Below are positions 2,218-53,439 of a DNA stretch of 64,000 nucleotides, piece after piece. The stretch's first letter is position 1; every line of letters starts with the position of its first letter. The notes under the pieces are model-generated. The model had not been told where the DNA came from. It saw only the letters and a program-made list of their open reading frames with translations, and did not search any database. Origin of the DNA: Paracamarosporium sp. OC-R06-R3 (Eukaryota > Ascomycota > Dothideomycetes > Pleosporales > Didymosphaeriaceae); NCBI GenBank assembly GCA_019828545.1, contig JACVRA010000169.1, positions 62,001 to 126,000 of the forward strand. The letters run 5' to 3'. The position numbers and the translations under genes are program-made.

Positions 2218-3673
2218 ATCTAGGTCGGTGATGGATCCGACACATGCCACCGACTTTCGTCCATGAAAGCCCCCGGTTGTACATGGCATCATCCTCACAC
2301 TTGTGCCACCAATCAAGTAATGGTAGGCTCATTAAATCCCTTTTCGGAAGTCCAAGTGCACCAATGTTCGTTCATTGATGGAGCACACCCAAGGATTATG
2401 TAGGACCCACTGACCTCCCATGGTGGCAGGTAGAAACATCGCGCACGGCTTCGCCAAGTGCTGACAGGGGTAACCAATGTGATTCGAAAAAATCTCCAAA
2501 GCGTATTGGTGCGAGAAGAGAAAGCCAAGAGCGCGATTCGATTCGGGTGTTGATCGACATTAATATCATCGAGATTTTTCCTCAGTTTTAGGTGGGGTAA
2601 CCGGGATAGAGAGTGCCCAGAAAGGGAGAGTTGTGCACGCCAATTGCTTGACGGCACAGTAGTCGTTGTGCTTAATGATTTCCGAAGGATGTATCCTGAG
2701 ATGTCCTGATCGGTCAATATATCCGACGTCTGTAGATCGCGAAAGGAAGGTGAGTGTTGTGGAATGTCATCCATGTGCAGGAATCAACATGAGACAATGC
2801 TATGACTAGGTTGGTAAGCAATTCCAAGTAAGGGATAGGATGACCTCACGTGTCTCAGACAGGGAGGATTCACAAAGGACATGGACCTCAGCAAAGTGAA
2901 ACGGAATGAGCGTAAAGCTGACGAGTATCATAAATACTGGAGCGCACTCCACTAAAGCTTAACGTGTTGTGCAATGTAGGTAAAATGTAGACTACCTACC
3001 TTATCCTAGGATACCCGATATTAATGCCGAACGTACTCAATATTTAATTAAGAGCATTAGTTTGGACTGTTAGAAAAAAATCACCTGACTGGTTTTGGGT
3101 GGCTTACAAAAGTCGATACTCCGAAACAAGGTAACGTTCACATCTTGAGCAAGAGACGATTCTAGTCTAGGAATCATATCCACCCAATTCTTCTCCTACT
3201 CTTGTTACATTGCACAAACTCCCAGTTTCACCATCACTGTATGTGAACCCGACTAACCCGTAAGATGGTGTTTACATCGCTTCGCCGGTAAATCCGGTGG
3301 GCCAATTCCAGTAAACGGTCAAAGCACAAATATTTCTCCTCGCGTGGATTGGATCTGCATGGGAGTAGAGCGGACGCATACCAAGCGACGCGGTATACCG
3401 CTAGGGTGAAAATAGAAATCGAATAATGAGCCAGCATAGCAATCACAGAAAGTCTAATACTTGCGCATCGAGAACTCGGAACCAACAACATCTCTCGTAG
3501 CTTCACTGCTGCGTGGAACATACTGGTGCGGTAGTATTCCGACACTTGATTGAAGGATCTTGGCGTATGGCTGTGCTGTAGCTGAGCCATAATAACGTGC
3601 TTGAAAAGGAAAAAATAAAATTCATTGTCACAAAACGAAGTCTATTCTCCGTTACCAGGTTCGAACCCACGAC
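2218..3673. other. Intergenic, no supported gene
   Basis: About 1.45 kb without a convincing gene. Two minus-strand open frames (2313-2774 and 3234-3590) have no family resemblance, no splice-supported extension and no signal peptide. The distal part (about 2940-3220) is relatively AT-rich. A palindromic gttcgaac at about 3658-3665 resembles a Pol III B box, but the flanking T-stem does not pair on either strand. Confidence 0.5.
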
Positions 3674-3680
3674 AAAAAAA
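3674..3680 (-). terminator. Pol III terminator (T7) after the initiator tRNA
   Basis: Seven consecutive T on the minus strand begin 9 nt after the last tRNA base at 3690. A run of four or more T is the normal RNA polymerase III stop, and this spacing is typical. Its presence supports a working Pol III unit. Confidence 0.75.
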
Positions 3681-3689
3681 GAAATCTCA

Positions 3690-3864
3690 TAGCTGAGCTA
3701 CGTTTCGATCGTAGGTCTAGGCCGAATTAGTTTTATGTTATTGATGGTGAATGTCGTATGACGTACCCTCCGGGTTATGAGCCTTTTAATTTATTAGTAC
3801 AAGGTGTGAACACCGTCGATGGGAGAAGAACGTACCCGGCGCGCTTCCGCTGCGCCACTCAGCT
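3690..3864 (-). tRNA. Initiator tRNA-Met (CAT) interrupted by two spliceosomal-type introns
   Basis: Minus-strand exons are 3864-3836 (29 nt), 3782-3767 (16 nt) and 3716-3690 (27 nt), together exactly 72 nt. All four stems pair perfectly: acceptor AGCTGAG/CTCAGCT, D stem GCGC/GCGC, anticodon stem CCGGG/CCCGG and T stem CTACG/CGTAG. The anticodon loop is CTCATAA and the T loop is ATCGAAA, with the A54/A60 signature of eukaryotic initiators; A73 follows. An A box (TGGCGCAGCGG) and a B box are present. The insertions at 3835-3783 (53 nt) and 3766-3717 (50 nt) both start GTACGT, carry TACTAAT or AACTAAT, and end AAAAG or CCTAG. They fall between nucleotides 30/31 and 46/47, not at the canonical 37/38. 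Perfect stems argue against a decayed pseudogene. Whether it is transcribed and spliced is unproven. Confidence 0.85.
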
Positions 3865-4389
3865 TTGTTTGAGGGCTAGATGCCAAAAATTTCCAGATAA
3901 AAATTCATATACCTAATTAAATTGACGGGTGGCAGAGATTGTGGGTTATTTTATCAGGGTTGTTGGTGACAGTGGGGTAGTGGGTGAGCTAACCAGTGGA
4001 CTCAACAAAGATTTCAGTATTGTGAGTCATACGGAGGGAGGGGTTCGTGGAACTTCACACTGGCACCAGAGGGCCAATGCAAACCAAGAGAGAAAGCAAT
4101 CGAGTTGGTGATGGGGTGGATTAATCATAATAATTATCTATGAAAATGAAGGCTGACAAGAACCCGACTATTTAAAAAGCGAGTAAAGATAATGTATGTC
4201 TACACTGTTGCTCGGATGCCCTCTATACAAGGCCCATAACTACAATGATCACTCCAATCCTGCCTGTCAATGCGAAGAATTCTGCTCCACAGGCCCAAAA
4301 AAACTCTCGCGCAACGTGCTATGCGTATCACCGGTTCTATTCAATGCTGGGGGTATATCTCCAACGTTTCTCACTCTCTCCTTTCTCTC
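3865..4389. other. Intergenic between tRNA-Met and LCB kinase
   Basis: About 525 bp. The part next to the tRNA 5' end is AT-rich and includes gtatatg (minus strand) about 45 bp upstream of the tRNA, a possible TATA-like upstream element. No protein-coding signal was recognised. The part near 4200-4389 is likely the 3' flank of the kinase gene. Confidence 0.4.
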
Positions 4390-6005
4390 TTACACTCCCC
4401 TCGCTTCATACTTATGCCCACTCTTACTCAGCACCGTCCCCAACTCTCTGTGCACCTCAACCTGGAATGGTTGAAACGGCACTCTTTCTCCGTCAATGCT
4501 AATATACCCGTCTTTTTGATTTTTAGGAATGATTCTGTACGCACTGATCTTCTGATAGTCAACTTGCGGCATGTCGAAGAACTTGTGCTGCTCCACAGCA
4601 AGCATAGTGGCAACTGCTTGCGTCCGGGGGATGCTGCCCTTGATGCGGACTAGGTCGAGGCAGCCGTCAGAGGGCAGCGCGGCGGGGAAAAAATTCGCGT
4701 CAGGCGACATGTAGGCGAGATTGCCTGCGTAGAAGTTGCCGAGTTGATCGTGTGGTATGAGCTCCCAACTCTCTGGTAAGGGGTCATTGACGGTGCCGTA
4801 TTTCAGGGGGGGAAGGCCAGTGCTGGAGGTTGGGAGGATGCGGTCATCGTGAGTGCGTGGTGGTTTTGAGGACTCTGCGCGATACACATCTCGAACGGCT
4901 TGTTTGGTGTTGTATTCGACTTTCACGGCTATATCGGCTGGATAGACGGTTTGTTTCATAATGCGAACGATGACACCGTACGTGAAGCGGGCACTACCCA
5001 TCCAGCGGAGGTTCTCGGTCGCGAGGTCGGTCTCGGCGACGATGCCGACGGATTGCGAGAGAAAGGAGAGTATGCGGCAGTCGCCTTGGGTCACAGAAAC
5101 GAGGTCCAGGGGTGTGCGGAGGCCCTTGACCACGGCGAGGGCTGCGAGACTCGGGCTGTCGGTTCCGTTGAAGTTCAGGCTCATGGCGTTGCCTGAGCCA
5201 CAGGGCAGCTGGGCGATGGCAACCTTGAGCAAGGCACGAGCAGCATCGTCTCTCTTGCCCAGCCCATTCCATACCTCGTGAGGGATGCCGTCTCCAGAGC
5301 AGCAGGCCACCACGTCGTACTTGTCAATGTCCAAGCTTTGCGCTATCTCAACACCATGGCCGTTGTGCTTTGTCGTCTCGACGTCTAGCTCACAGCGCGC
5401 GGCTGCGAATATGGGTGCGATGTGCTTGTGGTAAAACTTTTGGCCGTGCCCCTGACCGCCGAAGGGATTGACCAGCACCTTGATGCGCTTCTGCCGCTGC
5501 GACGCGCCGTATGCCTTATCCATGAGCCTCTCGGCCCATGCCGCCGACAGGTCGCTCTCTGGCTTGTCGAGCTTGTAGCTGATGATTTGCGGCCGGACGA
5601 CGTGCTTGGACACGCGGTGCGCGTAGTGGACGATGATCTCGCCATCCTCCGCAGCTTCGGCCCACAAGATGTTGAAGTAGGGGATCGAGCGCGTTGTCTT
5701 GTGCTCTGTTCGCCGTCAGTTGCTGGGCCACGCGTCGCAAGAGCCATGCCCTTACTGCTCCCGAGGGAAACTCCGCAGCACCCTGCGCCTTTGCTTTCCA
5801 GGAGCGCCTCATCTACAGCCCGTCAGCGCGCGTCCTCGCCGTCCCGTTGCGGGCCATACATACCCAGCACGATGAGAGCATCCGTCCCCAGCGTCAACGA
5901 CGCATTCCTGCCCACGGCGAGCGTCGCGGCTATGTCGGCTTCGGCCTGAGCATGCGTCGGGTCCCTGAAGGGATCAATCGCGCTGTCCCCAGCACCATCT
6001 GCCAT
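4390..6005 (-). CDS. Sphingoid long-chain-base kinase (LCB4/5, sphingosine kinase family)
   Basis: Three exons, 6005-5864, 5812-5756 and 5705-4390, encode 504 aa. Joining the exons gives TTRSIPYFNILWAEA, a family signature just before the catalytic domain. The DAGK-type catalytic domain spans roughly residues 135-280. It contains the nucleotide-binding VNPFGGQG near 145, SGDGIPHEVWNGL near 203 and CGSGNAMS near 235. The C-terminal lobe ends with a conserved IDGERVPFQPFQVEVH stretch. The enzyme phosphorylates sphingoid bases such as phytosphingosine to long-chain-base phosphates at internal membranes, linking sphingolipid breakdown with stress signalling. The N-terminal exon is short and acidic. 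The ATG at 6005 was chosen because it lies just ahead of conserved-looking sequence; the open frame runs further upstream without support. Confidence 0.93.
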
Positions 6006-52085: not shown

Positions 52086-53439
52086 TTATATGTGTACGTA
52101 CATACTTTGGGTGCTTTTGGCAAGATACCTTTGTATAGCATGGCGGATGATAGATGGTCGGCTGGCGGTATCGGGAAGCATGGCGGGCTGCATTGCTATG
52201 ACGAATCGAAGTAAAAGAATACCCCGGAGTTGGATCTAACTGGTGATGTTGGCTTTGTATCATAATAGGGTGGTAAATGAAACCGTAGCTGTAAGAATAG
52301 CAGCGACGTCCATCAATCGATCATGTCTCACTCAGACAAGACTGTGAACAGTTCTAGCGCACATGAAGTAGCGCTTGAACAAGGAGTGCGAAAAAAAAAG
52401 ATATTTACATCGGGGAAAAAAACATGGGTGCCTCAAAAGCAAAAATCAGTCGAACAACCACCTCGCTCACACCTCCCAACCCTAACTAGAGTAATCCAGC
52501 GCCGCCGTCCAATGGTGAATACCTGACTGCAGAATTGCTTCCCTCGTCTGGTTGTATTCATTGCTTAAGGCCGCTCAGCATCGCTAGTTACCTAAGCGAG
52601 TGAGAATCGACCACCACCGGACTCGAACTGGGCTCCTATTAGAGTAAGAGCTTGGGAGGCGCGTGTGAGATTACGGCCTATCTTCTGAAAATTGGACCCA
52701 TTACAGGTAGCGAAAGTTTCAAAATTAAAAATTCATATAGAAGTATTAAACATAATCTAGAGCGATACGCATCCGCAGATCCCGTACGATGACCTGGTGC
52801 AGCGGTGAGTTGTCCTCGCTTAAAGTGGGATGGGCTTGTGTGATGGAGGGGCTCCACGCGGATTCGATTCAGTCTCAATGGGTGGCCCTTCCCTTGGACC
52901 AATACCTCCGACATAGTATCCGCATTTCAACGCGCTTGTCGAAAATCTACCAGATCCCCCAGATAAAACCAACGTAGCAGTATAGCAATAAATAAGAACG
53001 CGATGTCGAACGTAGACGTTCGTTGCCAGCGGCGACTCAAAGCATTGCAGCAGCCATCTAACCGTGATTCAGTGCCCCTCGGCTATTGAGAAATGCCTCG
53101 CTCAGCATATTAGCCTATCATGGAGTCCGCACCTTTAGCGCTATTTTTGGGCATAGCAAATCCAAACATGTAACTACATTCGCAAACTCATTGATCCAGC
53201 GTGACTGGCTTATAGGCATTTTTGCACAAAGAGCTCGAGGGCGTCTACATCATGCTGTCCATTGCGCAACCATTAGTTTCATGACGGTGCATTCATCGAT
53301 CCGTCCATCCATCCATTAATCAATCATCGGAAACACCAAACTCCAAGGCCATGCACTAAGCCCGTTTCCGTCCTCCTACAAACCGAAAAAAAAAAAAGCA
53401 ATATCCACAAAGAACCCAAACAATTCCACCTCGTAGTCA
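52086..53439. other. Intergenic, no supported gene
   Basis: 1.35 kb. It contains a poly-A tract at 53387-53398. tRNA-like fragments (a B-box-like gttcgagtcc on the minus strand near 52630 and an A-box-like tggtgcagcgg on plus near 52796) do not fold into a tRNA. Confidence 0.5.

Follow-up and report, generated by a model that had tools for sequence, protein, structure and literature searches.

According to textbook teaching, only the Sen endonuclease and a ligase deal with introns of nuclear tRNA genes, so that a gene in which an initiator tRNA is broken up by two insertions bearing spliceosomal signals raises the question of how such a tRNA would mature. The gene in question, of the initiator tRNA-Met type, was found by direct reading on the minus strand (3864-3690) of the window, that is, the whole 64,000-nt stretch of contig C55 analysed here. 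Judging from its sequence and from that of the two other initiator genes found in the genome, the spliceosome very probably removes both GT-AG/CTAAY introns from the predicted Pol III transcript of all three, leaving in each case an identical 72-nt initiator tRNA.

The window copy consists of three exons and two introns, all on the minus strand. Exon 1 (3836..3864, 29 nt) holds tRNA nucleotides 1-30 and is the same 29 nt in the copies on contigs C11 and C38; exon 2 (3767..3782, 16 nt) holds nucleotides 31-46, with the anticodon CAT inside, and exon 3 (3690..3716, 27 nt) nucleotides 47-73, the CCA end not being encoded. Intron 1 (3783..3835, 53 nt, GTACGT...TACTAATAA...AAAG) lies between nucleotides 30 and 31, and intron 2 (3717..3766, 50 nt, GTACGT...AACTAATTC...CTAG) between nucleotides 46 and 47. 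The joined exons amount to 72 nt and fold with acceptor, D, anticodon and T stems of 7+4+5+5 bp, all of them Watson-Crick, with anticodon CAT, T loop ATCGAAA and A73, and ARAGORN identifies them as tRNA-Met(cat). Reading and program thus agree with the original prediction, in which three minus-strand segments formed a perfect 72-nt initiator tRNA, and re-reading returned the same two GTACGT-starting insertions, with the same limits, lengths and sites. The prediction had also placed a CTAAT motif 12-14 nt before the AG end of both introns; the motif is there, but the spacing needs correction, as the branch A stands 11 nt from the end of intron 1 and 10 nt from that of intron 2. Because a G is present on both sides of the junction, intron 1 carries a one-base register ambiguity.

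The hallmarks of a eukaryotic initiator tRNA-Met are the anticodon CAT, A1:U72, G29-G31:C39-C41, A20 and A60. The part of PMC3978253 used here also gives A54 as such a hallmark. All of these are displayed by the joined exons, and the joined product is predicted to bind eIF2 and to start translation. In its interrupted form the window gene was missed by ARAGORN and by Rfam at the gathering score (64-kb window), and none of the three interrupted loci was detected by cmscan with E up to 1. When introns of up to 200 nt were allowed, ARAGORN misread two of the precursors as tRNA-Leu and tRNA-Pyl and gave nothing for the third. Similar genes may have escaped annotation in other fungi, a blind spot suggested by the fact that the non-canonical intron search of tRNAscan-SE 2.0 is described for archaea (PMC8450103, in the portion used).

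Three initiator-type tRNA-Met genes were found in the 43-Mb genome, on contigs C11, C38 and C55 (the window), all of them interrupted twice, with intron 1 at one and the same site and intron 2 at nearly the same site; the C11 and C38 copies, together with a shifted junction and a downstream B box described below, go beyond the single copy of the original prediction. Exons measure 29, 16-17 and 26-27 nt over the three copies and introns 1 and 2, respectively, 51/49 nt in C11, 54/50 nt in C38 and 53/50 nt in the window, while the joined product, cut in the GT-AG register, is 72/72 identical across them. All six introns start with GTACGT and end with AG, and they contain the branch motif CTAAT (five of six) or CTAAC (the remaining one), its A 9-12 nt from the intron end. 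The inner intron sequences show 58-68% identity between copies in gapped alignment, against 50-55% for shuffles. This identity exceeds that of the shuffles in all three copy pairs for intron 1 and clearly in only one of three for intron 2, so the common descent of intron 2 rests on its place and signals. With introns diverged to this extent, 0/72 exon differences in each of the three pairs would not be expected without selection (about 0.65^72, as an estimate); the exons are thus constrained, and the splice signal is the best-kept part of the introns. Since the introns diverge around intact splice signals and between unchanged exons, the copies are not decaying. Neither of two findings that might have overturned the original prediction is therefore borne out here: decay is not seen among these copies, and a sequencing mosaic at the locus is discarded by the same architecture at three loci on three contigs.

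The position of intron 2 provides a natural experiment on where the cuts would fall. In C38 it lies one nucleotide further along, at 47/48, versus 46/47 in C11 and the window, and the junction reads GGAGGA|GTACGT..CTCAG|CCTACG in C38 and GGAGG|GTACGT..AG|ACCTACG in C11 and C55. If C38 is cut in the register of the other two copies, a different product results, whereas the GT-AG cut restores the identical tRNA; the shifted junction thus supports the GT-AG boundaries.

As regards the type of intron, U2-type features are found throughout, namely GT..AG termini with a GTRNGY donor (6/6), CTRAY near the 3' end (6/6) and a length within the range of the host. That range comes from an intron set inferred from sequence and not from transcripts. 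With the tRNA gene masked and tails scanned at 45-65 nt only, 36/473 GTRNGY sites of the window are followed by a branch-AG tail, versus 3.2% of other GT sites; GTACGT sites alone give 3/25 (p 0.056). The initiator introns, at 49-54 nt, fall among the 45-64 nt of the 36 window candidates (scan range 45-65 nt), in line with the original prediction that the insertions have the usual intron length here, and they fit the predicted local intron grammar. A homology-free, ORF-based intron test gave no separation, with 41 for GT-AG and 26-42 for four decoys. TTTT is absent from all six initiator introns but also from 29/36 window candidates, so it does not discriminate. Group I and group II introns were discarded, as about 50 nt is too short for them, and a retrotransposon primer-binding-site test gave no match with 0 or 1 mismatch and, with 2, 23 matches versus 22 in the control.

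The sequences around the genes point to transcription by Pol III. In each of the three copies, a TATA-like element lies at -47 to -54, exon 1 holds an A box, and a T5-T7 run follows the gene. In the window, these are TATATG (3906..3911, minus, at about -47), TGGCGCAGCGG (3847..3857, minus, recognised from the A-box consensus) and a T7 run (3674..3680, minus), the predicted Pol III terminator. The B-box consensus is GWTCRANNC, and two sequences of this kind accompany the window gene. One is an internal B-box-like GATCGAAAC in exon 3 (3702..3710, minus), at a distance of about 147 bp from the A box. The other, GGTTCGAACC (3658..3667, minus), is a downstream B box past the terminator, 190 bp from the A box, and has a counterpart in both C11 and C38. 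The motif RGTTCGANYC lies beyond the T-run in 3/3 copies, at +198 to +216, with an A-to-B distance of 190-208 bp, and occurs within 120 nt downstream in 1/41 other nuclear tRNA genes (Fisher p 0.0003), the single one being L089, where it precedes the T-run. A looser B-box pattern is found 8 times in 128,000 window positions, which corresponds to about 4e-7 for 3/3 by chance, and within the window the strict form is confined to this site (palindromic, on both strands) and the interior of an SRP RNA gene; genome-wide, GGTTCGANYCC is not enriched (177 versus 193 in the control). TATA-like elements are common to tRNA genes of this genome (34/41 of the other nuclear ones), and it is the B box alone that sets the initiator genes apart.

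U6 is a Pol III RNA, and of the U6 loci (L042, L043 and L044) the two full-length genes, both uninterrupted, each have a B-box-like motif within the 250 nt searched downstream, namely GTTCGATTC at about 34 nt, without the leading R, and GGTTCGAGTC at about 106 nt. On C302, a third U6 match has a diverged 5' end and lies inverted, about 220 bp from the second. The fungal SRP RNA gene of the window (52442-52709, minus, 141.6 bits) is preceded by a TATA-like element and contains a B box at about +81. Extended elements resembling those of U6 (TATA-like element, A box, T-run and B box beyond the gene) are thus present in 3/3 initiator copies, which suggests a U6-like promoter. By analogy with yeast SNR6, TFIIIC would occupy the A box and the downstream B box, and the latter may owe its existence to the introns, which separate the internal B box from the A box by about 147 bp. 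The likeness to the SNR6 promoter consists of the TATA-like element, the A box and a B box that lies past the gene; the difference is that the host here is a tRNA gene, which also keeps an internal B-box-like sequence. In SNR6, widely separated TFIIIC sites are brought together by a nucleosome, according to the part of PMC9136082 used. The other tRNA gene with a downstream motif, L089 (C327:244208-244279, minus), is an intronless tRNA-Arg-CCT gene with a second T-arm-like GGTTCAATTCC and acceptor-like sequence before its T-run; in L120, the second CCT copy seen, the anticodon loop is interrupted by an intron of about 24 nt.

Whether the genome also contains uninterrupted initiator genes was addressed by several queries of the assembly (43.09 Mb, 337 contigs). 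A D-arm pattern with up to 3 mismatches matched eight places, comprising the three broken genes (C11, C38 and C55, exact), L034, which is a tRNA gene with an ordinary intron, L035, and L036-L038, which on reading are not tRNA genes. A second D-arm pattern (up to 3 mismatches, 58 places, most of them judged by the matched letters only, the nearest, L038, by reading) led to no further initiator gene, and a pattern spanning junction 2 (up to 3 mismatches, whole genome) matched the three broken genes only. Of the 11 places with an exact GGCTCATAACC, none yields an uninterrupted tRNA in ARAGORN, and the only ones that prove on reading to be tRNA genes are the three broken copies. The 72-nt product as a DNA query against the genome hits only exon pieces, at these same three loci. 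The genome scan suggested along with the original prediction has therefore turned up no uninterrupted initiator copy with D-arm, junction, GGCTCATAACC or 72-nt queries, although an intact copy could be missing from an assembly in 337 contigs. With a profile built from the joined product and L035, the three broken genes score 51.6-56.2 bits but other tRNAs also 24-53 bits, so that the profile contributes little. About 1.27 kb downstream of the C38 copy lies an orphan 3' piece of an initiator gene, GATCGAAACGTAGCTCAGCTA (L032:81-101, minus), followed by a T-run, with exons 1 and 2 absent.

L035 (C282:515110-515196), which sits about 290 nt from a contig end, is a CAT tRNA gene that matches the initiator at 60/72 positions once an ordinary 14-nt insert at 37/38 is removed. 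A1:U72 and A54 are retained, but A29:U41, G20 and G60 depart from the initiator set. Because these changes hit initiator hallmarks and no other elongator Met gene is present among the tRNA genes seen in the genome, L035 is most likely, though not certainly, the elongator; a deviant initiator is also conceivable, and L035 could in principle supply the initiator. The three interrupted genes would then be unused copies, with the initiator coming from L035 or from an intact gene absent from the contigs. The initiator-like traits that L035 retains would agree with this, as would the fact that its assignment as the elongator is itself inferred and the division of the assembly into 337 contigs. Against it stand the identity of the exons in three dispersed copies with diverged introns, the splice signals kept in 6/6 introns and the compensated junction shift in C38, together with the 29:41 (A:U), 20 (G) and 60 (G) positions of L035, which fit an elongator, and the idea is considered distinctly improbable.

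A still less probable explanation is that the Sen endonuclease cuts out the insertions, which would be ectopic tRNA introns like those of Cyanidioschyzon and nucleomorphs, and that their GT-AG look is coincidental. In its favour, some algae have non-canonical tRNA introns that are attributed to such enzymes (PMC4090602, in part), and many nucleomorph introns are without a defined bulge-helix-bulge (PMC3978253, in part). In the initiator genes, however, none of the 6 junctions, each examined in 5 registers, gave a complete bulge-helix-bulge: the best central 4-bp helix has 3/4 pairs, with flanking helices that do not complete the structure, and the shifted junction of C38 has 1/4 pairs in the GT-AG register and 2 at best. 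As no junction forms this structure, the ordinary tRNA endonuclease is unlikely to act, and the insertions, at 30/31 and 46/47 or 47/48, do not match the Sen-type site 37/38. Moreover, what is conserved between copies is the donor, the branch and the AG, and all 48 of the other nuclear tRNA genes read are complete tRNAs by ARAGORN, either with no intron (11) or with a single one in the anticodon loop (37), the largest measuring 41-42 nt in tRNA-Phe. These counts come from a program that tests introns in the anticodon loop only and shifts some anticodons (L035 is read as Pyl); the Rfam tRNA search of the genome gave at least 62 matches, with 63 of 1284 candidates scored. Among the nuclear tRNA genes read, the double GT-AG insertion was seen in initiator genes only. 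Least probable of all would be that the spliceosomal introns are removed from a capped Pol II transcript, which is later trimmed to a tRNA. Spliceosomal splicing is normally coupled to Pol II, and a same-strand ORF ending at 4390 lies about 525 nt upstream of the window gene, but the A box, T5-T7 run and downstream B box of 3/3 copies, and a TATA-like element placed as in other tRNA genes, are at odds with this origin.

Removal of both introns by the spliceosome from a Pol III transcript is preferred because the GT-AG boundaries, branch motif, length and one-base shift in C38 fit it, while the bulge-helix-bulge alternative fails; the splice signals, the shift and this failure also lend support to the original prediction that maturation would need the spliceosome. 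In this scheme TFIIIC would sit on the A box and the downstream B box, an arrangement like that of the yeast U6 gene, and Pol III would start from the TATA-like element. U1 and U2 snRNPs would recognise each intron of about 50 nt by intron definition, and two splicing rounds would join the exons of 29, 16-17 and 26-27 nt, the anticodon stem closing only after both. The ordinary Sen endonuclease would be inactive on the initiator junctions; its predicted substrates here are the anticodon-loop introns of other tRNAs. What counts against this mechanism includes the middle exon of only 16-17 nt and the nature of a Pol III transcript, which is without the cap and CTD that normally help splicing. 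Taken further, the three genes probably represent a new class of nuclear tRNA introns, in which the whole initiator supply of a fungal lineage would pass through the spliceosome, with two introns per molecule, in Pol III genes with a U6-like promoter and a downstream B box, making translation initiation directly dependent on splicing capacity. If so, a spliceosome-dependent tRNA, the initiator at that, would break the Sen-only rule, spliceosomal introns could invade and persist in a tRNA, translation initiation would be tied to splicing, and it would become testable how the spliceosome acts on a middle exon of 16 nt and on Pol III transcripts that are short and uncapped.

A search of the open-access literature by titles and abstracts, subscription papers being outside it, found no description of a spliceosomal intron in a tRNA, and the original prediction had likewise known of none. 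In the text available from PMC4090602, nucleomorphs and Cyanidioschyzon are named for non-canonical eukaryotic tRNA introns and the string 'spliceosom' is absent; the portions used of PMC11782384 and PMC3978253 do not describe a spliceosomal tRNA intron either. In Aspergillus niger, two CAT genes of 72 nt are intronless (PMC6108506, in part). The introns of fungal U6 snRNA and U3 snoRNA are, as here, spliceosomal introns in small structured non-coding RNAs (PMC5832005, in part), but in the present case the host is a tRNA, with two introns in a 72-nt RNA and a middle exon of 16-17 nt. Canonical nuclear tRNA introns, processed by the Sen endonuclease and the Trl1 ligase, share with these the presence of an intron in a nuclear tRNA gene (37/48 of the others here have one), and differ in that the initiator introns occupy sites 30/31 and 46/47 or 47/48, carry GT-AG and branch motifs and form no bulge-helix-bulge. 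The ectopic introns of Cyanidioschyzon merolae and nucleomorphs likewise occur several per tRNA and at unusual sites (PMC4090602, in part), although those are attributed to the splicing endonuclease and measure 3-24 nt in Guillardia, whereas the ones described here have spliceosomal signals and the length of mRNA introns.

A scan of viral contigs turned up a single contig, with a series of phage-like tRNA genes on it, and scans of genome contigs turned up none. The glycine cleavage T protein encoded in the window shows 90-92% identity to its counterparts in Kalmusia, Karstenula, Bimuria, Paraphaeosphaeria and Didymosphaeria, of which Kalmusia and Paraphaeosphaeria belong to the Didymosphaeriaceae (Pleosporales, Ascomycota); a basidiomycete origin was discarded on these matches. 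A mixture of two nuclear genomes in the assembly was discarded, as coatomer beta gives one full match and one distant match of 23%, which suggests a single nuclear genome. Contigs C26 (33 kb) and C300 (28 kb) each carry mitochondrial-type tRNA genes whose sequences differ between the two, a hint that the assembly contains either two mitochondrial genomes or a contaminant.
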